Positions 53,448-63,556 of a DNA stretch of 64,000 nt are shown piece after piece. The position numbers and the translations under genes are program-made. This DNA comes from Arthrobacter sp. PAMC 25486 (GTDB lineage: Bacteria; Actinomycetota; Actinomycetes; Actinomycetales; Micrococcaceae). Every line of letters starts with the position of its first letter. Position 1 is the first letter of the stretch. The notes beneath the pieces were generated by a model. The model did not search any database. It was not told the DNA's origin and was given only the letters and a program-made list of their open reading frames with translations. The stretch is from positions 2,564,439 through 2,628,438 of the forward strand of contig NZ_CP007595.1 of assembly GCF_000785535.1 (NCBI RefSeq), given 5' to 3'.

Positions 53448-54080
53448 TCAGCGCGGCGCCGGGAACGCTCCGTGGAGTGCGTTGCGGACGAGCTCGTCGG
53501 CGAACTCGACGGTGAGGGGCTCGTCGGGGATGACGAGGCGGTGGTAGCAAGCGCCCCAGAGTTGGTCGACGATGACATCCAGGGAGAAGCCGCCGCGGAG
53601 CTGGCCGCGGTCCCGCGCCCGCTGCAGCGCCGCAATCGCCAGGTCCCGCCGCGGACGTGAGTAGGCCGCCGAGAATGCCGCCCGCAGTGCCGGGTCGGTT
53701 TGCGAGGCGCCGATCAATTCCGCAATGACGGTGCCGGCGCCCTCCTCGGCCAGGAGGTGCACGAACGCGCGCAATTGGGTGCGCAGGTCCGCCTCGATGT
53801 CGCCGGTGTCAGGGAACTCAAGCGTGTGCTCCACGCGGTTGAAGTAGGCTTCTGCGGCGAGCGCCCCGGCGCTGGGCCACCACTTGTAGAGGGTCGTCTT
53901 GCTAGAGCCTGCGAGTGCGGCCACCTTGTCGAACGTGACGGCGGGCAGGCCCTGCTCGAACAGCAGCTCGGCAGCTGCGGCAACCACCCTGCCCCGTACT
54001 TCCGCGGCGGGTCGCCGGCCCCTCCCGCGCCGTTCCGGCAGGGCCTCACCGGACAAAGTTTTTATGGACATGTTGTTCAT
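53448..54080 (-). CDS. TetR/AcrR-family regulator
   Basis: The 210-residue repressor has an N-terminal TetR helix-turn-helix (RGRVVAAAAELLFEQGLPAVTFDKVAALAGSSKTTLYKWW, about residues 28-70) and a C-terminal ligand domain. It is divergent from the SDR gene with 47 bp between starts, the classic layout for a local repressor. There is no clear Shine-Dalgarno sequence; a second ATG lies three codons in. Confidence 0.9.
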   Translation of the reverse strand: MNNMSIKTLSGEALPERRGRGRRPAAEVRGRVVAAAAELLFEQGLPAVTFDKVAALAGSSKTTLYKWWPSAGALAAEAYFNRVEHTLEFPDTGDIEADLRTQLRAFVHLLAEEGAGTVIAELIGASQTDPALRAAFSAAYSRPRRDLAIAALQRARDRGQLRGGFSLDVIVDQLWGACYHRLVIPDEPLTVEFADELVRNALHGAFPAPR

Positions 54081-54127
54081 TATGACATAGCGTAAATGGT
54101 GTACAACTTGTTCATATAGGAGTTTTC
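54081..54127. promoter_or_regulatory. TetR/SDR divergent promoter with candidate operator
   Basis: The 47-bp gap and the first codons hold a palindrome ACAA-c-TTGT (54103-54111) and a TTGTTCAT direct repeat (54073-54080, 54108-54115). One repeat covers the TetR start and the other the SDR leader, so one TetR dimer pair could repress both genes. The region is strikingly AT-rich. Confidence 0.5.
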
Positions 54128-54865
54128 ATGGAAAGCAACCAGACCCGCAGCGCGATCGTGACCGGCACCTCCGGTGGCATAGGCCGCGCCGTGGCCCAAC
54201 GCCTCGCCGCCGACGGCTTTGCCATCACTGCCCACTACGGCGGAAACCGCGGGCGGGCGGAAGACGTGGTGGATGAGGTCCGCGCGGCGGGCGGCCAGGC
54301 GATCGCCGTCGGCGGGGACGCTGCGGACGAGTCCGCCATGGACAAACTTTTCGGGGCTGCAGAAGAGGCGTTCGGCGGGGTCGACGTCGTCGTGCACACC
54401 GCGGGCATCATGCCGCTGGCGCCGTTGACCGAGCTGGACCTGGCGGTTTTTGACCAGGTGCAGCGCACAAACGTCAGGGGCACCGCCGTCGTCGCCCAGC
54501 AGGCAGCCCGTCGGGTTCGGGCGGGCGGGGCGATAGTCCTGTTCTCCACCAGCATCACCCGGCTCCAGTCGCCGGGCTACGCAGCGTACGCGATGTCGAA
54601 GGGCGCTGTCGAGGCGCTCACCCTGGTCCTGGCGCGCGAGTTGCGCGGCCGCGACGTCACCGTCAACACGGTGGCGCCGGGCCCCACAGACACGCCGCTG
54701 TTCCGTGAGGGAAAGCCTGCGCAGCTCATCGAAACCATTGCGGGGCTCAACCCCATGGGCCGGCTCGGCACGGCGGAGGACATTGCCGGGGTCGTCTCGG
54801 CGCTGGCCGGAACTGCCCGCTGGGTCAACGGCCAGGTAATCTACGCCAACGGCGGCGCGGCCTGA
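54128..54865 (+). CDS. Short-chain dehydrogenase/reductase (FabG-like)
   Basis: The 245-residue SDR has the cofactor site GTSGGIGRAVAQRLA, then HTAGIMPLAPL, a catalytic Ser in FSTSITR and YAAYAMSKGAVEAL with Tyr-Lys. NTVAPGPTDTPLF follows. It resembles 3-oxoacyl-ACP reductase-like enzymes of secondary metabolism. TAGGAG is upstream of the ATG. It is probably de-repressed by a ligand of the divergent TetR. Confidence 0.9.
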   Translation: MESNQTRSAIVTGTSGGIGRAVAQRLAADGFAITAHYGGNRGRAEDVVDEVRAAGGQAIAVGGDAADESAMDKLFGAAEEAFGGVDVVVHTAGIMPLAPLTELDLAVFDQVQRTNVRGTAVVAQQAARRVRAGGAIVLFSTSITRLQSPGYAAYAMSKGAVEALTLVLARELRGRDVTVNTVAPGPTDTPLFREGKPAQLIETIAGLNPMGRLGTAEDIAGVVSALAGTARWVNGQVIYANGGAA

Positions 54866-55120
54866 GCGGCGGGCCGGCCGCACACCGGTTCTCCCGGCGT
54901 GGCCATCACCAGCGGATTGTTTTGCCTGCGACGACGCTCGGCCCGTGAGACCGAAATTCTCAGTTTTGTGTCACTTTCCTACAGGCAGTTTGCCGTTGAT
55001 GAAGATGACAGCGCTCCGTCCCTAGTACGACAACTAAACTCTCTGTATCCATCAGGCATTGGTGAGCACCGACCCAGCGATTGTCGGAGCCAGAAGAATG
55101 ACCTCACATGAACAGAAGTC
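54866..55120. other. Left flank of the cassette array, no convincing gene
   Basis: An open frame of 70 codons exists here (54899-55111), but it lacks a ribosome-binding site and recognisable sequence. GC drops visibly from about 54940 onward, marking the likely junction between backbone and acquired DNA. A gene remnant or an array-proximal attachment site could lie here. Confidence 0.4.
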
Positions 55121-55150
55121 CTGTCCCGTATAGGGTCCCTTCACCGGGCA
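55121..55150 (+). repeat. Cassette-array repeat copy 1
   Basis: CTGTCCCGTATAGGGTCCC is followed by CCGGGCA. Arms TG(T)CCCG and CGGGCA pair with one bulged T. This is the leftmost copy. Confidence 0.75.
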
Positions 55151-55278
55151 ATTTTGCGGGCGGGGTATACGGGAATCCGGCGACCGCGGAAGCACGCGGA
55201 CTGTCGTTCCGGGTATCCTTGATGGCGGTTGGACCGGCCATGGACCGGCTTGCGGGACGACATTCAGGTGAGTGACTG

Positions 55279-55740
55279 TTAACTTTGTGGTTGATATGCC
55301 TGTGCAGGTGCGAGGTGCAGGTGCAGAAGCGGGAACGCGCGGCCTTCACCGTCGGTTTCGGACCGACCTATCTCAGTGAATCCTTTTGCGGCGTAAAAGT
55401 TTCGTCCCGATGGATTCTGTTCGTTGACATCGACTCGTATGGACTCCCGGCCAGTGACGACAGAAGCAAGTAGGGCACTTCCGATCCCACGGCCCTGCGC
55501 AAGCGCATCAACAAACAGCATCTCCACTGTGTCATTCTCGATCGCGATGAACCCTATGAGTTGCCCACCTTCTTCGGCAACGCGCAGGTCGGACATCTGC
55601 GGCAAATATGTTGCTACGTCCTGCTCAATGGCATCGACATCCGCTGGCGTCAAGAACTCGTGTGTTGCCTCTACAGAGCGCCGCCAGATCTCGAGTAGTG
55701 CAGAGTAGTCGGTATCGATAGCTGCGCGGATAGAAATCAT
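55279..55740 (-). CDS. YjaB-like GNAT N-acetyltransferase (array gene 1)
   Basis: The 153-residue acetyltransferase aligns by eye with E. coli YjaB: IWRRSVEATHEFLTPADVDAIEQDVATYLP, GFIAIENDTVEMLFVDALAQGRGIGSALL and VDVNEQNPSGRNFYAAKGFTEIGRSETDGEGRAFPLLHL. The acetyl-CoA loop is QGRGIG. The ATG at 55740 matches the family start (ISIRAAIDTDY). It is the only gene between array copies 1 and 2. Acetyltransferases are among the commonest integron cassette genes. Confidence 0.9.
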   Translation of the reverse strand: MISIRAAIDTDYSALLEIWRRSVEATHEFLTPADVDAIEQDVATYLPQMSDLRVAEEGGQLIGFIAIENDTVEMLFVDALAQGRGIGSALLASVVTGRESIRVDVNEQNPSGRNFYAAKGFTEIGRSETDGEGRAFPLLHLHLAPAQAYQPQS

Positions 55741-55842
55741 GGCATCACCGTAATATGCCGCGGATGCCCGAAGCAATTCAGGCGCCAGAGCCTCTTGGTC
55801 CCGAAAGTAGCCCGTTGAGCACCCTCGGATGGAAATGTGCAC

Positions 55843-55870
55843 CTCGCAGAGGGTTCCCGTTACGAACACT
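55843..55870 (+). repeat. Cassette-array repeat copy 2 (degenerate left arm)
   Basis: The core CGCAGAGGGTTCC is identical to the consensus. The left arm is altered (ACCT) and the right reads CGTTACGAAC. Confidence 0.55.
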
Positions 55871-55907
55871 GTGTTAGCGGGTCCACGGTAGGAAACTCAT
55901 GAGCTGG

Positions 55908-56312
55908 TTATTTATGGGTCATCAGCAAGCGCGCGTCAAAGATACTTACCAAGGATTGGGCGAACTCAGCTTCCGACCCCTCGATTCCCTCGCCTCCAGG
56001 ACCATAACTGATCCCGGTTCCTGACTCATTAAGTTCGCAGTCGACGTCAAGGGCACGTAGGAGCGAAAAGAGCCTAGAAATTCCCTCTGTCTCTGATATG
56101 TCTCGCAGTTTTGGAACATTAACGGTGAGCGTTTTAATGGTCAGATCGTTGTTCTCGTTGTTTTCGATGATTTGCCTCGGTTTCTCAGTAATTCGACCCT
56201 GATGAACCCTGAATTTATCACCCTCGTTGACCAGTGGCCGGTAGCTAAGCCGGTCCGGTTCTCCGATTTCAGCTACCTTGGTCAAAGAGCTGCCCCGTAA
56301 ACCGTTCCCCAT
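55908..56312 (-). CDS. Hypothetical protein, 134 aa or shorter (array gene 2)
   Basis: I do not recognise this protein. It is acidic and soluble, with NNENNDLTIKTLTVNVPKLRDISETEGISRLFSLLRALDVDCEL in the centre and a GTGISYGPGGEGIEGSEAEFAQSL C-terminal region. It shows no signal or membrane span. The first codons overlap array copy 3, so the true start may be a TTG about ten codons inside. The composition is less GC-rich than the backbone genes. It might be an immunity-like or regulatory small protein; there is no direct evidence. Confidence 0.6.
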   Translation of the reverse strand: MGNGLRGSSLTKVAEIGEPDRLSYRPLVNEGDKFRVHQGRITEKPRQIIENNENNDLTIKTLTVNVPKLRDISETEGISRLFSLLRALDVDCELNESGTGISYGPGGEGIEGSEAEFAQSLVSIFDARLLMTHK

Positions 56313-56320
56313 CTGCGACG
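56290..56320 (+). repeat. Cassette-array repeat copy 3
   Basis: CTGCCCCGTAAACCGTTCC matches the consensus at 15 of 19 positions and is followed by CTGCGACGG. It overlaps the annotated 5' end of array gene 2. Confidence 0.55.
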
Positions 56321-56355
56321 GTCAATATCTATCTGGCAATCCGGTCAAGCGCAGT

Positions 56356-56526
56356 TTACCGCCGGGACTGTCTTGGTCGGGTCATGGCGATAACTAGAAC
56401 GACGATTCCCGCAACTATTAGGATCCATCCCAGTATGCCGAGATTGGTGAACGTAACCACAATCGCTCCGGCAACTAGCAGCGCAATGGATAAAGCCCGG
56501 ACCGACAGCGCAACTCTAGTCATCAT
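56356..56526 (-). CDS. Small membrane protein, 56 aa (array gene 3)
   Basis: The protein is almost entirely two closely spaced hydrophobic stretches (ALSIALLVAGAIVVTFTN and GILGWILIVAGIVVLVIAM) with a basic TRPRQSRR tail. It resembles small DUF6458-like actinobacterial membrane proteins. The frame is open upstream to a TTG at 56637, and a longer form is possible. An AGGAG at 56608-56612 precedes an out-of-frame ATG-AGC minicistron of five codons. It is the only gene between copies 3 and 4. Confidence 0.6.
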   Translation of the reverse strand: MMTRVALSVRALSIALLVAGAIVVTFTNLGILGWILIVAGIVVLVIAMTRPRQSRR

Positions 56527-56643
56527 GCAACCCACTCTACGGTCACAGGAGAAGCTCATCGAGGCAGATGCCTTCGCATCTAAGAAACCGTGCTCATGAA
56601 GTAACTCCTGCCAACGTCGCTTCAGAGCTTCGAACAATATTCA

Positions 56644-56673
56644 CCGTCCCGGTAGAGGTTCCCCTTCGGAATG
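56644..56673 (+). repeat. Cassette-array repeat copy 4
   Basis: CCGTCCCGGTAGAGGTTCC is followed by CTTCGGA. The left flank TTCAC is shared with the copy at 60675. Confidence 0.7.
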
Positions 56674-56806
56674 CCGCTACGTGCCCCAGATTGGCACATT
56701 CATTGCAAACGCCCCGTGCAACTGTTGACATGAGGGTAGTGCCGCCCTCGGTGCAATCCATCTGCAGGGGCGAGCCACCACGCTTTCTTCAAGCAAAGAG
56801 GCCTTC

Positions 56807-56980
56807 TCAGAGGTGCAACACCTGACCAACCACTGCGACCGCAATGACAATGAGCGCTATAGGAACCAGGCGAAGCCACCACCGGCCGGACCATGGCCGT
56901 GGCCGATTGCGTGTAGCCTCTTCAGATTCTGTGATGCCTATGAAGTCGGTGATTCGGCGCCAGCGCCGCAGTTCGGTTGC
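56807..56980 (-). CDS. Single-span small membrane protein, 57 aa (array gene 4)
   Basis: A basic N-terminal half (RRWRRITDFIGITESEEATRNRPRPW) is followed by one C-terminal span (WLRLVPIALIVIAVAVVGQVLHL), a tail-anchored topology. There is no recognised family. The start at 56980 is chosen as the first Met before the ordered sequence; a longer frame to 57106 lacks support. It lies alone between copies 4 and 5. Confidence 0.5.
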   Translation of the reverse strand, partial: ATELRRWRRITDFIGITESEEATRNRPRPWSGRWWLRLVPIALIVIAVAVVGQVLHL

Positions 56981-57123
56981 CATATTGGAAAGTATTGCAC
57001 TCGGCAGCCCGAGTGTGCAGCCGCTCCCCATCGTCAAAACGGCCGGCTGCCCGTTTGAGCGAAGAGGCTGGGACCTCTCGCGTTTCACTTGGGCGACGAG
57101 ATTCAAAGTTCCTCGACTTCTCA

Positions 57124-57177
57124 GCTATGCATCTGAGGCGTGCGCGGAGGGCTATGCATCTGAGGCGTGCGCGGAGG
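57124..57177. repeat. 27-bp perfect tandem duplication
   Basis: GCTATGCATCTGAGGCGTGC plus CGGAGG-type sequence occurs twice without a gap (57124-57150, 57151-57177) just before array copy 5. The multiple-of-three length is probably coincidental since no gene is evident. Confidence 0.9.
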
Positions 57178-57188
57178 CTACCGAGATA

Positions 57189-57218
57189 GCGTCCCGCAGG
57201 ATGTTCCACGTATGGGAT
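57189..57218 (+). repeat. Cassette-array repeat copy 5
   Basis: GCGTCCCGCAGGATGTTCC is followed by GTATGGGAT. Arms TCCC/GGGA are retained. The start of the hydrolase pseudogene is 40 bp away. Confidence 0.65.
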
Positions 57219-57257
57219 TTATTGATGAACACAGATGTCCGCACGTAGCCTTGTGCA

Positions 57258-58063
57258 ATGGCATTTCACCAGGGCACCCTCGAAGGATCCACTATCGATG
57301 TGGGAACGGGCGTGCGTATCAACTATTTTGATTCGGGTGGCGATGGCTCTCCCGTGGTCATTTTGCATGGGCTTGCGGGCAGCGCCAGGGAGTTCTTCCC
57401 GACTGCGGATGCGCTCCCTGATTTTCGGACCATCCTCATTGACCTCCGCGGCCATGGGCGAAGCACTCGAAGCCCGAGTGATCTATCTAGGAAAGCCTTC
57501 GTTGACGATGTCGTTTACGTGATTAAGGCTGTCGTGGGTGGACCTGTGACGCTTGTCGGGCAGTCCATGGGCGGGCACACGGCAATGCTCGTCGCGGCAG
57601 CCCGGTCAGATCTTGTCACTAGGCTGGTGCTACTGGAAACCGGCCCCGGTAGTGGCACGCACACCCAGAACGAGGCCATGGGTGACTTCTTTCGTTCGTG
57701 GGCATTGCCTTCCCGAATCGTGAGGTTGCCCGCGCGCATATTGGCGATGGTCCACTAGAACAAGCGTGGGTGGATGATCTTGAACAATGCAGCGATGGCC
57801 TGTGGCCACGGTTCGATGCTGACGTCATGGTCGCGGCAATCAACGCGGTATCGGAGCCGAGGTGGCACGAATGGGAGAGCGTAGAAGGACCAACGCTCGT
57901 CGCGTACGGAGAGAACGGAATGTTCACCCCCGATGAGAAATCTGAATTTGTCAGACGGGGGCGCAATGCCGTACGAATCGACCTCGCTGGAGCCTCCCAT
58001 GACGCACACCTTGACGCCTTCGAAGACTGGATCGCGGCGTTACGATCGTTTCTATTGCCCTAA
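57258..58063 (+). pseudogene. Alpha/beta-hydrolase broken by a one-base frameshift (array gene 5)
   Basis: The first frame (57258 to about 57702) carries PVVILHGLAGSAREFF, IDLRGHGRSTRSPSDL and the nucleophile elbow LVGQSMGGHTAML. The second frame (about 57703-58063) continues with FPNREVARAHIGDGPLEQAW and GPTLVAYGENGMFTPDEKSEF, ending with the His region ASHDAHLDAF. Adding one G to the GGG at 57701-57703 joins them into a normal 268-residue hydrolase. The full triad would then be present. It is one of only two array genes on the + strand; copy 6 begins 2 bp after its stop. Confidence 0.85.
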
Positions 58064-58064
58064 A

Positions 58065-58092
58065 TGTCTCGCAGAGCGTTACGCTAACGACA
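58065..58092 (+). repeat. Cassette-array repeat copy 6
   Basis: TGTCTCGCAGAGCGTTACGC is followed by TAACGACA. It is a good palindrome: TGTC/GACA outer arms and an inner AGCG-tta-CGCT. It starts directly after the hydrolase stop codon. Confidence 0.65.
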
Positions 58093-58240
58093 CAGTGATA
58101 CTTCTTCGACCACTAAAGCCTGCAATCTTCGGAAGAAGCACCCATCGTGGGTCTGAACTGAGGCCTAAACTTAGGGCTTTTCGTGCTTCTCCCTAGAGGG
58201 CAAAGGGCGGTTGTCATTGATTACTTGCAGCCTTATAGCA

Positions 58241-59347
58241 TCAAATTCCGGCGATATACTCACGCAAGCCGGGGATGGCGAAGTCAATCACTCCACGGCC
58301 TGCGGGTTGGACGAGCCCAGCGTCGATGAGCCGGGCTCGGTAGTTGCCGATGGTATTTTTTGCGTCTCCGAGGCGCCTGCCGATATCAGCCGTGTTCGAT
58401 GGCCCATCATCTTCAGACATTGCCTGTAAGAACTCGATATCCTTGGGCGATGCCGTGGCCAATGCCGCAGCTAGGACTACGCGAGTGTTTTTCCGGTGTG
58501 CGGCACCTAAAGCCAGATCAACGCCTGCTGCTGTCAGCGGGGCTTCTGTGGACTCCGCTATCTGCCATAAGTGGTATCCCACCAGTTGTATGAGGAATGG
58601 GTAGCCTCCGGTTGATTCGGCTGCTTTCCGAATGAGTTTCGACGAAATTGGGTGTTCTAGGCTTGCAAACGTTTCTAGGTAAGATTCTTCAACCTCGCGG
58701 ATTGCCGCGGCATGCAAGTCAATTCGGTCGGCTCTGCGGAGGAATGTTGCGACGCCCTCATTGAGCAGATCGGAGACGGCGGCGGGCAGGCCTGCAAACA
58801 ATAGAGCAATTGGCAGTCCTTGGCGGATAAAGTGCTGAACGAAGGCGGCCAGTTGTGCAAGTTCATCACGGTTGGCGCCGTGAATCTCGTCTAGGGTGAT
58901 AGCCAACCCGGTGCGCTTCTCATCCAGCAATTGCAACAGTTGCTCTCCCAATTGCCTCCATCCCAATTGCTGCGCCGGAGGCAACTGAGCAGTGATCGAG
59001 AAGCCTGCGGCTCCGATGCCCGTAATTCGACGGCCCTTCGGCCCTTCTCCCAGCTCTTCAGCCGCTGAACGCATGGCTTCTCCTATTCGCCCCAAGAAAC
59101 CTGTCGTTGCAGTCTCCGAGACCACCAGCCATCCTTGGGCACGCGCGATATCTTCAGCCTCGCCGAGCATGACGGTCTTGCCGATACCGCGGGCTCCGGT
59201 GAAAATAGTGAGCAAGCCAGGGGCCCCGGATCGGATCTGCAGACCGTAGGAGAACTCGTCCAGCAGTCCGGTTCGACCGATGAGCTGTGGTGGCTCGGCT
59301 CCTGCCGTGGGACGGAAAGGATTCTGAGTTATTTGCTGACTGGTCAC
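58241..59347 (-). CDS. AAA-type ATPase with C-terminal winged helix (array gene 6)
   Basis: This is the largest array gene (368 aa). Residues 10-40 (QNPFRPTAGAEPPQLIGRTGLLDEF) lead into Walker A GARGIGKT and Walker B LAITLDEIHG. FLRRADRIDLHAAAIREVEESYLETF and TGGYPFLIQLVGYHLW are typical of the ORC/Cdc6-like STAND-AAA ATPases of actinobacteria. The C-terminal part (SNTADIGRRLGDAKNTIGNYRARLIDAGLV) is a winged helix. It probably is a DNA-binding regulator or defence-type ATPase. The GTG at 59347 has AGGAG 5 nt upstream. Four phased GTACAC sites precede it. Confidence 0.85.
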   Translation of the reverse strand: MTSQQITQNPFRPTAGAEPPQLIGRTGLLDEFSYGLQIRSGAPGLLTIFTGARGIGKTVMLGEAEDIARAQGWLVVSETATTGFLGRIGEAMRSAAEELGEGPKGRRITGIGAAGFSITAQLPPAQQLGWRQLGEQLLQLLDEKRTGLAITLDEIHGANRDELAQLAAFVQHFIRQGLPIALLFAGLPAAVSDLLNEGVATFLRRADRIDLHAAAIREVEESYLETFASLEHPISSKLIRKAAESTGGYPFLIQLVGYHLWQIAESTEAPLTAAGVDLALGAAHRKNTRVVLAAALATASPKDIEFLQAMSEDDGPSNTADIGRRLGDAKNTIGNYRARLIDAGLVQPAGRGVIDFAIPGLREYIAGI

Positions 59348-59367
59348 GACTTCTCCTGTGAATAGTT

Positions 59368-59411
59368 GTGTACTCAGTGTACTCCTGTGTACCTGATGAA
59401 TGAGGGTGTAC
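59368..59411 (-). promoter_or_regulatory. Four helically phased GTACAC sites upstream of the ATPase
   Basis: GTGTAC on the + strand (GTACAC on the minus) occurs at 59368, 59377, 59387 and 59406. The steps are 9, 10 and 19 bp, i.e. about one DNA turn with one missing site. They lie 20-65 bp upstream of the GTG start and would suit cooperative binding by one protein. Confidence 0.65.
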
Positions 59412-59570
59412 TGATCGGTGCTATCGGTGAGTTTTGTTGAATATCCCGGGAGGAGACTCAGAAACGGATGGAACGAGCATTTGGAAGATCGAGTCAGAGG
59501 CCTCCAGAAATGTCGGCTAAATCCGAGAAAGTGCACATCTTTGATTACACGGATCAATTTCGCATGTCAG

Positions 59571-59600
59571 CTGTCCCGTAGAAGGTTCCTACTGCGGGCA
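59571..59600 (+). repeat. Cassette-array repeat copy 7 (near consensus)
   Basis: CTGTCCCGTAGAAGGTTCC is followed by TACTGCGGGCA. The CCCGTAG/CTA..CGGG arms pair with small bulges. The flank CATGTCA is shared with the copy at 61454. Confidence 0.8.
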
Positions 59601-59631
59601 CTTTCCCTCTATCTCGTTGGTTCGTCGCCCC

Positions 59632-60228
59632 CTAGTGGTAGAAGGGCAGTTTTTGGTTCGCCTCGACCCGGACGACGTCGAGACGTGGTTCGGTCAGTAG
59701 CGGGTCGATCAGCGCCTGCTCAGCCCCGATACCAGCCCAATGGGGATCAACATCTGAGGTGATGCACCAGGACCGGTCCGAAGGCCAAATGAACGCAGGG
59801 TGCGGCATAAGGTGACCCGTTCCCGTTTGCCACGAGTCTTCGATCGCCCCGGATACGAAGTCCTGCAGCGAGACCCTGTACAAGTAGTACTCACGATTTG
59901 GGACCACCACCTGGGGCGTGCGCAATAACGGCTCGGGGAACGAGTCACCACCCCAACCGTCCCATATCAGCAGGTATCCCTCGGTGGGCGAGCCGGTGTG
60001 CTGCAGTAACGTCCCCACCGCGATACGGAGCTGATCATTGTCTGAGAGGGCGTCATCCTGGCGTGCAGCATCGTTTTCGGACTGACCCTCGTAGGCCGGA
60101 TCAGGGATGAACCGTAGTCGCGCATACGCCGGGAATCCCGGAGGGCCCAGCGTCACCAGGTTCCACCAGTGCTCATCGCTGGTCGTGATCCATTTTGCGG
60201 CCGCCCGGTCACTGTAAGGAAATAACAT
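59632..60228 (-). CDS. Hypothetical soluble protein, 198 aa (array gene 7)
   Basis: I do not recognise this family. The protein is rich in Trp and Pro (KWITTSDEHWWNLVTLGPPGFPAYARLRFIPDPAYEG, then GYLLIWDGWGGDSFPEP, then YYLYRVSLQDF, then WCITSDVDPHWAGIGAEQALIDPLL). It looks like a folded cytoplasmic domain of the kind seen in actinobacterial orphan or immunity proteins. GGAGG lies 4 nt upstream of the ATG at 60228. It is the only gene between copies 7 and 8. Confidence 0.75.
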   Translation of the reverse strand: MLFPYSDRAAAKWITTSDEHWWNLVTLGPPGFPAYARLRFIPDPAYEGQSENDAARQDDALSDNDQLRIAVGTLLQHTGSPTEGYLLIWDGWGGDSFPEPLLRTPQVVVPNREYYLYRVSLQDFVSGAIEDSWQTGTGHLMPHPAFIWPSDRSWCITSDVDPHWAGIGAEQALIDPLLTEPRLDVVRVEANQKLPFYH

Positions 60229-60273
60229 CACCCCTCCATCCTCCTGCACGACAGTCTAACGAGTAGCGGGAGG

Positions 60274-60304
60274 CCCGTCCCGGTCAAGGTTCCTCCTACG
60301 GGGG
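60274..60304 (+). repeat. Cassette-array repeat copy 8
   Basis: CCGTCCCGGTCAAGGTTCC is followed by TCCTACGGGGGG. It lies between the 5' ends of two divergent array genes. Confidence 0.7.
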
Positions 60305-60340
60305 GATGTTGGCGGTGGCGTGGCCGTGTTTGGATGAACC

Positions 60341-60619
60341 ATGAGTGCTTCCAGAAAGACCCTGTACGCGGCGTTGGGAACCGTGCTCGCTCTCGCAGGA
60401 GTAGCAGGAGGGTTGGTGATGTTTTTACAGCCTTGGAGGAGCTGCCCCGAGATTGATGACAGCTCTGCCGGCTGCCCAGCCACCGGGAGTGATCAAGGCC
60501 TACTTGGTATTGCTGTTCTCGTTCTGTTGGTTGGGATCGTGCTTCTGGCCATGTCCATCTCCATTAGACGAGAGCAGATTCCGTCCGACGCTGCCGGACC
60601 CTTCGGGAAATTCACCTAG
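60341..60619 (+). CDS. Two-span small membrane protein, 92 aa (array gene 8)
   Basis: A basic N-terminus is followed by span 1 (LYAALGTVLALAGVAGGLVMFL), an external loop with two Cys (SCPEIDDSSAGCP) that could form a disulfide, span 2 (LLGIAVLVLLVGIVLLAMSI) and a charged tail. No family is recognised. It is one of two + strand genes in the array. Copy 9 lies 56 bp past its stop. Confidence 0.7.
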   Translation: MSASRKTLYAALGTVLALAGVAGGLVMFLQPWRSCPEIDDSSAGCPATGSDQGLLGIAVLVLLVGIVLLAMSISIRREQIPSDAAGPFGKFT

Positions 60620-60674
60620 CGCCCGCCAAAGAATAGTCCCGGCAATTCCATGGCGCTCTTATTGCAACCTTTCA

Positions 60675-60704
60675 CGGTCCCGTAGAGGGTTCCGACTACG
60701 ACCA
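60675..60704 (+). repeat. Cassette-array repeat copy 9
   Basis: GGTCCCGTAGAGGGTTCC is followed by GACTACGACC. The arms GGT..CGTAG and CTACG..ACC form an 8-bp stem with a 2-nt bulge. Confidence 0.75.
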
Positions 60705-60862
60705 CGCAATCGCATCCCAGCAGGCCTCGCATTAGCAGGCCGTGCGCCGTCCAGCGAAATCGATTGTGACTGCCCATTTTGACCAGGCCAGCCTGGACTT
60801 GTGAGTCGGCCTGCAAAGAGAAAGCGAATCCTGCAGTTCAGCTGGCCAGAGGCTGTTGCGTT

Positions 60863-61315
60863 TTAGCTGCCGTCACGGGATTGGGTGTTAAGAGTCCCGT
60901 CATTGGAAGCGCCTGGCAATACGCTGGCGGCCCGGAGCTGTTCAATACGTTTCCCCCGAAGTATCGTGGCCCACCTAATGCCGACACACGCAATAAGGAC
61001 TGCAATCGGGAGGGCCGCGATCATGGTCCCAGCAATATCCGTGTGCACTACTGTGACGCTCGGAGTCGTTTGGGTATAGGTGCACACGTAGCTGATGGGC
61101 ACTAACTGAGACTCAGATCCGGGCAAGGGGCCTTCATGCACCGGGGGAAGGCCCGCCGGCAGTTCTTCAACGCAGAACTCCCACAGCCTGTCGCGAGTAA
61201 ACCCTGTGTAGAGAAAGGCCGCGAGTCTTTCGGCAACCAGGTAGTACCACCCCAGTGCCAACACCAGGAGTGGAATCGCAAGTAGGTCAATGCGTCCGTA
61301 GGAAGTCCGTTTCAT
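60863..61315 (-). CDS. Two-span membrane protein, 150 aa (array gene 9)
   Basis: Span 1 is near the N-terminus (LLAIPLLVLALGWYYLVA). A soluble middle of about 70 residues follows (WEFCVEELPAGLPPVHEGPLPG...CTYTQTTPSVTVVHTD, two Cys), then span 2 (MIAALPIAVLIACVGI) and a basic cytoplasmic tail. GGAGAT precedes the ATG. No family is recognised. It is alone between copies 9 and 10. Confidence 0.72.
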   Translation of the reverse strand: MKRTSYGRIDLLAIPLLVLALGWYYLVAERLAAFLYTGFTRDRLWEFCVEELPAGLPPVHEGPLPGSESQLVPISYVCTYTQTTPSVTVVHTDIAGTMIAALPIAVLIACVGIRWATILRGKRIEQLRAASVLPGASNDGTLNTQSRDGS

Positions 61316-61453
61316 CGACGATCTCCATGTCTTTGGGCGGCAGGGGCATCCGTAGGATCTCGTTGGAGCGAGAATTCGAGTAGAAATCCTCAGGATAGTT
61401 CCATAGTCGGGAAAACCTCACACGCGACTTGGAAGAGACCTCCCGGCATGTCA

Positions 61454-61483
61454 CTGTCCCACAGAGGGTTCCACTTATAGGGA
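61454..61483 (+). repeat. Cassette-array repeat copy 10
   Basis: CTGTCCCACAGAGGGTTCC is followed by CACTTATAGGGATG. The stop codon of array gene 10 (61475-61477) lies inside its right arm. Confidence 0.75.
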
Positions 61484-62032
61484 TGGGTCGATCTTGTCTG
61501 GTTTGTGGGTCTGGTGGACTGCTTCTGCTTCTGCTGCCGCTTCAAGTTCCTCGTCGGAAATGCTCAGCATTAATGTGCTGTCGCGCTTGGTGAAGAGATG
61601 CGTGGCTATCTCGCGGCGGTTGACCTTCCAAATGCTAGGCGGCACTTCTTCGTCCTCCCACGGCCGGGTCGGCTGGCCGTAGAGATCCGTCAGCTTGCCC
61701 GACACAGCGTCGTGGCCGAGGCGGGTCGCAGGGCCCTGCGCATCGGGGAATGAGTATAGGTGGAAGTGAACGCTCATGAACCTGCCGCGAAACGAGTCCC
61801 ATGAGGCAAAGGAAACACCTGGAAGGTCAGTGAGGAGGGTAAATGACGCCGTGGACGACCCGTCCGAGTCATGATCCAAGCGCTCTCCCGTTTTGAAGTG
61901 AAGTCGTCTGAAGAGAGACTTGCGTTTCTCATCGGAGCTTGGCCAGGGTCCATCCACCAGTTGCGCCACTAGGGCCGCAACTGTGGCTGGACCTGGAGTT
62001 AGTTCGCTCTGCGGCTCGACGGTCGTGTTCAT
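61475..62032 (-). CDS. Hypothetical soluble protein, 185 aa (array gene 10)
   Basis: The N-terminal half reads ALVAQLVDGPWPSSDEKRKSLFRRLHFKTGERL, followed by a beta-rich middle (ASFTLLTDLPGVSFASWDSFRGRFMSVHFHLYSFPDAQG) and GKLTDLYGQPTRPWEDEEVPPSIWKVNRREIATHLF. It resembles small immunity-type proteins of polymorphic toxin loci in length and order, but I cannot name a family. No signal peptide is present. Its stop lies within the adjoining repeat, showing how tightly gene and repeat are joined. Confidence 0.75.
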   Translation of the reverse strand: MNTTVEPQSELTPGPATVAALVAQLVDGPWPSSDEKRKSLFRRLHFKTGERLDHDSDGSSTASFTLLTDLPGVSFASWDSFRGRFMSVHFHLYSFPDAQGPATRLGHDAVSGKLTDLYGQPTRPWEDEEVPPSIWKVNRREIATHLFTKRDSTLMLSISDEELEAAAEAEAVHQTHKPDKIDPSL

Positions 62033-62176
62033 ATGGCGACCCTACAGGCTGAACGCGGCGAAGTAAGCTCTTCATCCCCTGAAGATTGATTCGCAAAGAT
62101 GATCACTTTCTAGCTGAATCTCCAAGCCAAACAATTGCACTCACTTCTCACCGTCACGCGGCCACCACCAAAAATT

Positions 62177-62206
62177 CTTCCCGCAGGAGGTTCCTCTACC
62201 GGGACA
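62177..62206 (+). repeat. Cassette-array repeat copy 11 (rightmost)
   Basis: CTTCCCGCAGGAGGTTCC is followed by TCTACCGGGACA. The outer arms TCCCG/CGGGA and inner GAGG-TT-CCTC pair. Backbone sequence resumes beyond about 62320. Confidence 0.72.
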
Positions 62207-62271
62207 CCCAACCACCGGACATGAATCAAATTGACTCGCTGCTCGTTGCGGCTGGATTTGGAGTTTGATCC

Positions 62272-62314
62272 GGCTGTAGTGAGACAACTGCAGCAATTTC
62301 GTCTCACTACAGTC
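62272..62314. repeat. 14-bp inverted repeat at the right edge of the array
   Basis: CTGTAGTGAGAC (62274-62285) and GTCTCACTACAG (62301-62312) pair perfectly, extended by two further pairs, around a 15-nt loop. There is no U tail. Its place between the last array repeat and the backbone gene could mark a boundary or end the minus-strand MetE-like transcript. Confidence 0.7.
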
Positions 62315-62455
62315 GGACCATTCCGCTAGCTTCCACGCTTTTCGTGGTCCAACACGAATGAGTCGGGCGGGACAGCAACGGTGACACGCAACTGAGAACA
62401 GTGACATCAAATACGAGGATCTACAGCCGCGCGTGGCCCGGGTTGCTCTGGCGTG

Positions 62456-63556
62456 TTAGGCGTTGGCTGCCTCGATGATGTCGGCGTGCAGGCGCAACAG
62501 GGGTGCCGTTCGCTCTGCCGGGCCGCGGCCGAAACCGCATTCGGTGGCGATGCCGAACTCCGAGAAGCCTGCCTCGGCCACTGCGGGGCGGGCCGCTGCG
62601 ATGCGGCGGGCCGCGCCGTCGACGCCGTCTTCGTGGTGCACCAGGCCCAAAAACAGCGCCGTTTCGGGGTGCAGCTCCAGGTTGGCCAGCGGCGCAAAGT
62701 AGGCTGCGTCGTCGCGCTCGATGGGCACCGGCAAGTGCAGGAACTCGATGGGTCGGGTGATCTTCTCGGACAGCGCATTGGCCACGGCGGTCAGGTAGGT
62801 GGCGTCCGAGGGCTCCACGAAGTGTTTCTCGGCGACGTCGCCGTAGCACAGGTGGATCCCGAACTGCACGTCGTCCGGAACGGCGGCGGCAACGGCGGCA
62901 GCCATGGATGTCGCAGCCTCGATGATCCGTTCCGAGGAGGGGTCAGCACCCAGCACGTACCAGCAGTCTGGCGTGTTGCCGGCCACGGGAACTTGTTCAA
63001 TGTGGCTGAATTCAACGGCCAGGTCGATTTGGATGGCCAGGTCCTCTGCAGGGATGCCCGCCGCAATTTCCGCAATCTCCCGCCTGATGGCGTCAGCGTA
63101 GGCCGGGTAGACGGCGGGCTGGTCTGCAACGGCCACAAACGAACCCAGCGGGGCGAGCGGCGACGGAATGGCGACCTGGAAGCGGGTGCCTTGGGCTATG
63201 CTGCCGGCATCCCGCAGCGCCTTGAAATCCTGGTAGCTGGCCAGGGCTGCCTCGGCGTAGCCCAGCGGGCCGAACTTCAGCTCGGCGGCGGCCACGGTGC
63301 CGTCCAGGACAATTCTGCGCAGGTCGAAGCCGGCAATCATGAACGGCTCCCCCGGCACGCGGCTCAGGCCGTCAACAGCCTCAAACCTGGCGCCCTGGAA
63401 CAGGATCCAGTGGTAGCGTTCGCCGACTTCGCCGTCGGGGATGCGGGCAACGTGTCCGCCAAGGTTCTCGGCAACGATCGCCAGGGTGTCCTTGGCTGTG
63501 GGCTGGTTGATGGAGCCGACAAGGTGGGCCCCGCGGACTGCTGGAAGACTGGTCAT
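62456..63556 (-). CDS. MetE-like (cobalamin-independent methionine synthase C-terminal fold) protein
   Basis: The 366-residue protein has the UROD/MetE TIM-barrel fold. It starts with the family's HLVGSINQ-like region. Zinc-site motifs are visible as FGIHLCYGD (His-x-Cys) and FGIATECGFGRG (Glu-Cys). AIQIDLAVEF and ARIPDGEVGERYHW are typical of the short MetE-like proteins of actinobacteria and fungi. Whether it is a methionine synthase or another methyltransferase is unclear, as it lacks the N-terminal MetE half. TGGAAG precedes the ATG at 63556. Confidence 0.82.
   Translation of the reverse strand: MTSLPAVRGAHLVGSINQPTAKDTLAIVAENLGGHVARIPDGEVGERYHWILFQGARFEAVDGLSRVPGEPFMIAGFDLRRIVLDGTVAAAELKFGPLGYAEAALASYQDFKALRDAGSIAQGTRFQVAIPSPLAPLGSFVAVADQPAVYPAYADAIRREIAEIAAGIPAEDLAIQIDLAVEFSHIEQVPVAGNTPDCWYVLGADPSSERIIEAATSMAAAVAAAVPDDVQFGIHLCYGDVAEKHFVEPSDATYLTAVANALSEKITRPIEFLHLPVPIERDDAAYFAPLANLELHPETALFLGLVHHEDGVDGAARRIAAARPAVAEAGFSEFGIATECGFGRGPAERTAPLLRLHADIIEAANA

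Follow-up and report, generated by a model that had tools for sequence, protein, structure and literature searches.

An integron-like gene-cassette array in Arthrobacter sp. PAMC 25486, probably made by a small serine recombinase at sites resembling res site I

Integrons are usually regarded as the bacterial platform for arraying single genes. The stretch considered here, called the window, comprises 64 kb of the soil bacterium Arthrobacter sp. PAMC 25486 (contig NZ_CP007595.1, positions 2,564,439 to 2,628,438) and is numbered from its first base; compared genomes of the Micrococcaceae carry the designations G0xx, G1xx or G2xx, and loci Lxxx. Between 55121 and 62206 the window contains a series of short co-oriented repeats with genes between them. 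On the evidence of sequence comparison it is quite probable that this segment is an integron-like cassette array made by a small serine recombinase which acts on sites resembling site I of a res region. This suggests a second kind of bacterial gene-collecting platform.

Eleven repeats in a single orientation had been listed from the letters of the window before any comparison was made (the sequence-only reading), and a position-weight matrix built from them and run over the whole window returned the same eleven, all on the + strand, with scores of 23.7-38.8. The next-best score, 15.7, is the reverse reading of one repeat and nothing else exceeds 16, in agreement with the claim that the repeat is absent from the rest of the window; a matrix retrained on other genomes detects the window repeats again. 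Aligned on GTTC, the cassette site has the layout TGTCCCGYAGRSG-GTTC-CNCTTACGGGACA, a 30-bp near-palindrome with TT at its centre. By this alignment the array has ten co-oriented cassette sites of the TT class, each recovered by both matrix scans on the + strand (55840..55869, 56291..56320, 56645..56674, 57190..57219, 58065..58094, 59572..59601, 60276..60305, 60676..60705, 61455..61484 and, at the array end, 62177..62206). The eleventh repeat, at 55121, had been counted as one more of them but is part of another structure, as in alignments it matches the accessory portion of res regions. The - strand has, at 55246, a site of a second class that had been overlooked.

Comparison of the flanks of such sites shows cassette-wise exchange with a crossover placed to four bases, GTTC. 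Among 300 TT-class sites, 38 pairs have only the left flank in common and 41 only the right (an earlier comparison of 231 sites gave 30 and 22 pairs). In the left-shared pairs identity is 74-100% up to position -1 and near random from +4 or +5, and in the right-shared pairs it is near random up to -1 and 95-100% from +1 to +4; the pairs are not independent (57 and 59 distinct sites) and the matrix by which the sites were chosen favours the centre. Differences inside GTTC occur in eight left-shared pairs (0 to +3) and six right-shared ones (0 to +2), numbers that are too small, and differences too easily produced by mutation, for the cut to be located more finely. Two genomes, G018 and G019, share six blocks of at least 96.5% identity, and 11 of the 12 block ends fall within 25 bp of a site. 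In G018, 5.9 kb separate two cassettes that are neighbours in G019, where the junction pairs the left half of one of the two G018 sites with the right half of the second; elsewhere it is G019 that is longer, by three or four cassettes (one of the sites is weak, 14.1). Ends of shared blocks were found within 25 bp of a site in 151 of 330 cases, as against 15 of 330 random positions. The gain and loss of single units with a fixed junction, for which a synteny comparison had been proposed, can thus be seen between G018 and G019, and together with the constant place of the junction across the 300 sites it bears out the earlier interpretation of the repeats as recombination sites of a cassette system.

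The other interpretation offered at that time, elements of the repetitive extragenic palindromic (REP) or miniature inverted-repeat transposable element (MITE) type inserting at gene ends, is contradicted by the clustering of the sites and by cassette-size gain and loss with junctions fixed in the repeat. Taken together with homologous recombination between degenerate 30-bp repeats, such an origin is very improbable. It would account for repeats that lie between genes and for loose matches found genome-wide; with up to 3 mismatches, however, the loose pattern occurs 74+74 times against 145+118 times in a reversed control, so that there is no enrichment, and the signal resides in close matches and co-oriented clusters. 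Identity switches within four bases even at divergent sites, the indels are of cassette size, and the sites, rather than being dispersed without exchange, are clustered: in 392,035 bases outside arrays the trained matrices returned 2 sites of the TT class and none of the GT class. Within 27 arrays of at least 4 sites, taken from regions picked for having matches, 297 sites share the orientation of their array and 3 oppose it. In the fetched regions of the window's own genome 47 sites score above 15, those of the window included, and five further clusters are located at 35-45, 420-438, 574-605, 2121-2124 and 2528-2531 kb. At the locus of the window array no site was found in any of the 10 relatives fetched.

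The second line of evidence concerns the array head. In the window it comprises res site I, which belongs to the GT class and is opposed to the array (55230..55259, - strand, GT-class matrix score 30.4), and an accessory part (55121..55180, - strand, including the repeat formerly counted first) that aligns with 12 other heads. GT-class sites have GT at their centre in 56 of 58 cases; one lies within 7.5 kb upstream of 14 of the 27 arrays, 13 times in the opposite orientation, and downstream of 3 of 27. Further half-sites lie beyond the GT site at array heads; sites of both classes have the half-site TGTCCCGYA in common, and those of the accessory part are similar. An alignment of 13 heads, the window's included, reveals a common res, the heads of the window and of G001 being 60% identical. 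Eight of these heads run directly into the start codon of a recombinase gene, so that site I with accessory subsites stands immediately upstream of the gene; four (the window, array E of G000 and two of G019) do not, the window lacking the gene, and for the thirteenth (G007, 39640) the fetched sequence stops 360 bp beyond. Window positions 55137-55256 show 75% identity to the sequence that immediately precedes a recombinase gene on a Pseudarthrobacter plasmid. By these alignments the window head is shown to be homologous to the res of a recombinase gene. A motif near GTGCAGACGACTTCTGAAA recurs beside some cassette sites and inside res heads (for example G001:C2 215000-254999 and G000 2520000-2539999).

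The recombinase of G001, used as the reference, is a complete protein of the resolvase/invertase type with 193 residues, close to the 190 or so of small serine recombinases, and has their PF00239 (6.7e-40) and HTH_7 domains; its closest solved proteins, by name, are a DNA-invertase and gamma-delta/Tn3 resolvase, matched over nearly the full length. Its gene heads 15 sites in the expected orientation. The same orientation is found for the TT sites of the gene-bearing heads in G007 (5 sites, 8-13 kb away), G213 (2), G002 (2, 4-5 kb away), G076 (1, 6 kb away), G144 (1) and plasmid pA40H1 (1). In G006 a truncated recombinase gene lies 1.6 kb from a GT site, followed by 11 sites. When species genomes were scanned for one half-site pair, 23 of the 80 matches listed had a serine-recombinase start (MSPLKVGYARVSTDEQ type) within about 40 bp; these 23, among the matches listed, are all actinobacterial, from other genera and mostly of one near-identical lineage, and many of the remaining matches listed are chance matches in unrelated phyla. 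In the genome of the window PF00239 has four matches, including one intact gene with another upstream region and two pieces of a broken gene. Because no close homologue of the recombinase (E <= 1e-55) is present there and the PF00239 matches include these genes of another kind or in pieces, the window array looks like an orphan.

Taken together, these observations would fit the following course of events. Single-gene cassettes would be joined by conservative site-specific recombination at the TT centre of the 30-bp near-palindrome, the most likely enzyme being a small resolvase/invertase-type serine recombinase that has its own res as the array head. The order of a head would be site I (GT, opposite orientation), accessory half-sites and the recombinase gene, which points away from the array. 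A pair of TT sites in direct repeat would give a cassette circle with one site, which could be inserted elsewhere through TT x TT recombination. GT x GT recombination between heads would swap them, and this would account for differing heads around a shared acetyltransferase (GNAT) cassette: window positions 55243-55855 are 97.7% identical over 613 bp to the cassette at the head of a G019 array, the match begins at the centre of site I and ends at that of the first TT site, and no comparable BLAST match was obtained past site I at the G019 cassette. In the window copy the recombinase gene was lost or was never present. What we infer from these comparisons is that this enzyme carries out the exchange, that circles are formed, that there are two compatibility groups and that the array arrived as a block. 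GT and TT sites also occur as neighbours in one relative orientation, twenty times at a spacing of 69-71 bp and seven times at 27 bp; since these distances differ by about four helical turns, such pairs may be full two-site substrates, with the GT partner as a hypothetical accessory site.

Several findings weigh against this account. The upstream GT site is missing at the cut-off in 13 of the 27 arrays, though 5 of these are short of sequence and in some, the window among them, the accessory repeat had been taken as the first site. Site I has GT in all 8 gene-bearing heads (which were found with the GT-class matrix), while TT-class sites have TT in 305 of 315 cases. Serine recombinases require matching central dinucleotides; TT x TT fits and a GT head with a TT cassette does not, so that integration of cassettes at GT-type heads is left unexplained and is doubtful. 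Among the 23 heads from other genera in the matches listed, site I is AA (TT in array direction) in 13, which would match cassette sites if these heads have arrays. The recombinase family is present in 89 of 245 genomes of the family and in 22 of 32 genera (E <= 1e-55), also in genomes without any site match such as G023, G029 and G031, and at the same limit 5 of 16 sampled genus genomes, the window's own included, have no match. Thirty recombinase loci were fetched; a GT site was seen upstream in 8 of them and a TT site at a distance of up to about 1.5 kb in 3. A different, convergent resolvase adjoins two of the heads (G018, and G001 at 30-90 kb). Moreover, the exact ends of the inserted block cannot be read from G014, a relative with the same neighbours, with which only short alignments were obtained. 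The second resolvase type, which has another upstream region and is convergent at heads, was recorded at L104 10135-10737 and at about 74.1-74.7 kb of G001:C2.

The mismatch of GT and TT also speaks for another serine recombinase that moves the cassettes in trans, the arrays standing beside res only by descent; many other PF00239 proteins exist in these genomes and, as stated, a second resolvase type is present at two heads. Such an enzyme is nevertheless unlikely, since both site classes use the TGTCCCGYA half-site, which the accessory half-sites resemble, and since the head position recurs. The head-linked recombinase belongs to a family of resolvases common on plasmids and transposons: it was found on 532 plasmid records (E <= 1e-40), and a 69%-identical member adjoins a Tn3-family transposase on plasmid pAG1. 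The arrays are therefore probably a derived use of this family.

Gain and loss at a fixed point among co-oriented sites, a crossover at or beside G-TT and single-gene cassettes are all traits of integrons, and it has to be considered whether the sites are recombined by a tyrosine enzyme such as IntI or XerCD, in a true or divergent integron with the res-like head as a bystander. This is distinctly unlikely. IntI (TIGR02249) was found over the cut-off in none of 16 sampled genus genomes and in 3 of 245 of the family, and it was set aside as the enzyme on the result for the genus. No PF00589 domain lies, by coordinates, inside the arrays of G019, G018, G008 and G011; the linked tyrosine recombinase for which the sequence-only reading had recommended a search is thus lacking in the arrays examined, a serine recombinase gene being what is met repeatedly at array heads, and the suspicion that the system may be distinct from integrons gains support. 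In favour of a tyrosine enzyme, XerC-like and XerD-like genes (named by context) are present in the genome, and a conserved integrase family (L050) occurs in many genus genomes. This family, the best shared tyrosine recombinase besides XerC and XerD, was rejected as it lacks a close match in two array-bearing genera, g23 and g24: at E <= 1e-60 g23 has no match, what g24 has is 37% identical, and 3 of 16 genus genomes have no match either. It adjoins a DsbA-like gene in several genomes, and this locus is perhaps an insertion spot. An XerD-like gene on the G001 plasmid (114 kb) was likewise dismissed, the nearest array site being some 40 kb away.

Hairpins with the layout of attC were not recognised either. 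No R''/R' boxes and no partner box for GTTC could be seen by eye. Across 37 sites of this genome 59.7% of the cells are paired, against a shuffled mean of 58.6%, and the covariation score is 0.209 against 0.180, reached by 29 of 500 shuffles, with lower values for slid versions; this slight excess would favour an integron, but the test is weak since the right arm has indels and the halves derive from different cassettes. The description of the repeats as hairpins consequently lacks clear support, and the attC reading was set aside. No Rfam match was obtained in the repeats (search of 54000-63500); the only hit, a sub-threshold mir-4427 at 62260-62326, lies outside them.

How far the system extends was estimated with a covariance model of the same 37 sites. 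At the loose limit of E <= 5 it found matches in 23 of 23 genus genomes, with best E-values per genome from 5.3e-6 to 1.9e-3 (150 of at least 640 candidates were scored per genome), and under stricter filters a match with E <= 0.05 in 95 of 245 genomes of the family, where single matches may be due to chance. When plasmids were searched with 20 kb of array sequence, six records came up, none covering more than 2%. We lean towards a serine-recombinase counterpart of integrons widespread in the Micrococcaceae, with recombinase-res heads, TT cassettes, orphan arrays resembling clusters of attC sites lacking integron-integrases (CALINs), and two compatibility groups, TT serving the cassettes and GT the exchange of heads.

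The window array probably arrived as a block of about 7.5 kb. In 8 of the 10 relatives that lack sites at this locus a transporter region (named by eye) joins a MetE-like gene within 300 bp; in G011 about 1.3 kb of other sequence lies between the two, and in G014 TetR-like and SDR genes are present too. Beyond res the window has a conserved leader of about 230 bp (54891..55120, - strand), which is common to 3 of 7 other heads compared (G000 array E, G019 48006 and G017), where local alignments extend to 54891-54905; no recombinase gene of this type was found at these three. An 18-bp inverted repeat (GTGACAC..CTGAGAA) brackets the array at 54957-54974 and 62381-62398 and occurs also near the G019 and G017 heads, with 0 matches to the motif in 338,035 control bases; it resembles IS21-type ends. 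By analogy with class 1 integrons, which travel on Tn402-like transposons, the shared leader and the bracketing repeat indicate that the array may have been brought here by transposition.

Among known systems, integrons and CALINs have the same co-oriented, mostly single-gene cassettes with crossover at or by a conserved G-TT, a recombinase gene that faces away at the head (as at several loci here) and orphan arrays. Here, in contrast, no IntI was found, the linked enzyme is a serine recombinase with a res-like head, and the site is short and near-palindromic without attC layout or clear covariation. The resolvase-res systems of the Tn3 family and of plasmids likewise place a serine recombinase gene immediately after a res that comprises site I and accessory subsites, but do not have the tandem site-I-like sites, up to dozens with genes between them, nor the two central-dinucleotide classes. 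Resolvase-mediated shuffling of modules is, to go by its title as cited in PMC12217951, the subject of a work by Kholodii in 2001. The dif (pdif) modules of Acinetobacter plasmids also have short double-strand recombination sites around shuffled small gene modules. They are XerCD sites in alternating orientation, unlike the single orientation and long arrays seen here. Tn3-family res and passenger genes are treated in PMC7157771. Searches of open-access papers, with passages of PMC7157771 and PMC12217951 among them, turned up no description of a system such as the present one; subscription papers and preprints were outside the scope. If the reading is true, the strategy arose twice, in a convergent system with another enzyme chemistry, and it becomes testable how an enzyme family of excision and inversion could run gene capture. 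It would also give access to a pool of unknown genes of soil Actinobacteria and provide a compact recombination site for gene stacking.

The cassettes themselves are less rich in G+C than their surroundings (0.53-0.595 versus 0.59-0.68 in the flanks), as had been noticed. Each of the ten intervals between repeats has one plausible open reading frame (ORF), so the claim of one gene per interval stands for the window, with the reservation that the gene of the hydrolase cassette occupies two frames. The first gene, a GNAT acetyltransferase (55279..55740, - strand, start picked by eye; PF13673, E 1.7e-13), and an AAA_16 ATPase (58241..59557, - strand; PF13191, E 9.8e-10) are the two of the ten that pass a Pfam cut-off. 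An alpha/beta hydrolase-like gene in two overlapping frames (57258..58063, + strand) stays below every curated NCBIfam cut-off. A small membrane-like protein at 56356..56637 (- strand) has a sub-threshold UbiA hit, and the remaining six ORFs have no Pfam hit at all: four of unknown function at 55908..56312, 56807..57106, 59632..60249 and 61475..62032 (185 residues), all on the - strand, a small membrane-like protein at 60341..60619 (+ strand) and another membrane-like protein at 60863..61315 (- strand), the membrane-like character being judged by eye.

In 240 intervals of up to 2.5 kb (30 longer ones were left out) a crude gene caller gave one gene in 111, none in 88, two in 37 and three in 4, with 118 genes directed along the array and 79 against it; because of these counts the rule of exactly one gene is claimed for the window array only. 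Single cassettes recur in other arrays and species: window positions 56645-57150 are 94% identical to G229 and 60323-60625 are 78% identical to G203, and the last cassette, with the gene at 61475..62032, has counterparts in array C of the window's own genome (77%) and on an Arthrobacter sp. ERGS1:01 plasmid (81%), where sites are again found at both ends. Inside array C there is an ORF resembling, by eye, a group II intron reverse transcriptase (L032 12385-13851), and directly outside its head a TnsA/TnsB/TnsC/TniQ-like gene set, also named by eye (L033 5595-10385). In the window, a perfect 27-bp tandem duplication at 57124-57177 stands directly ahead of a cassette site.

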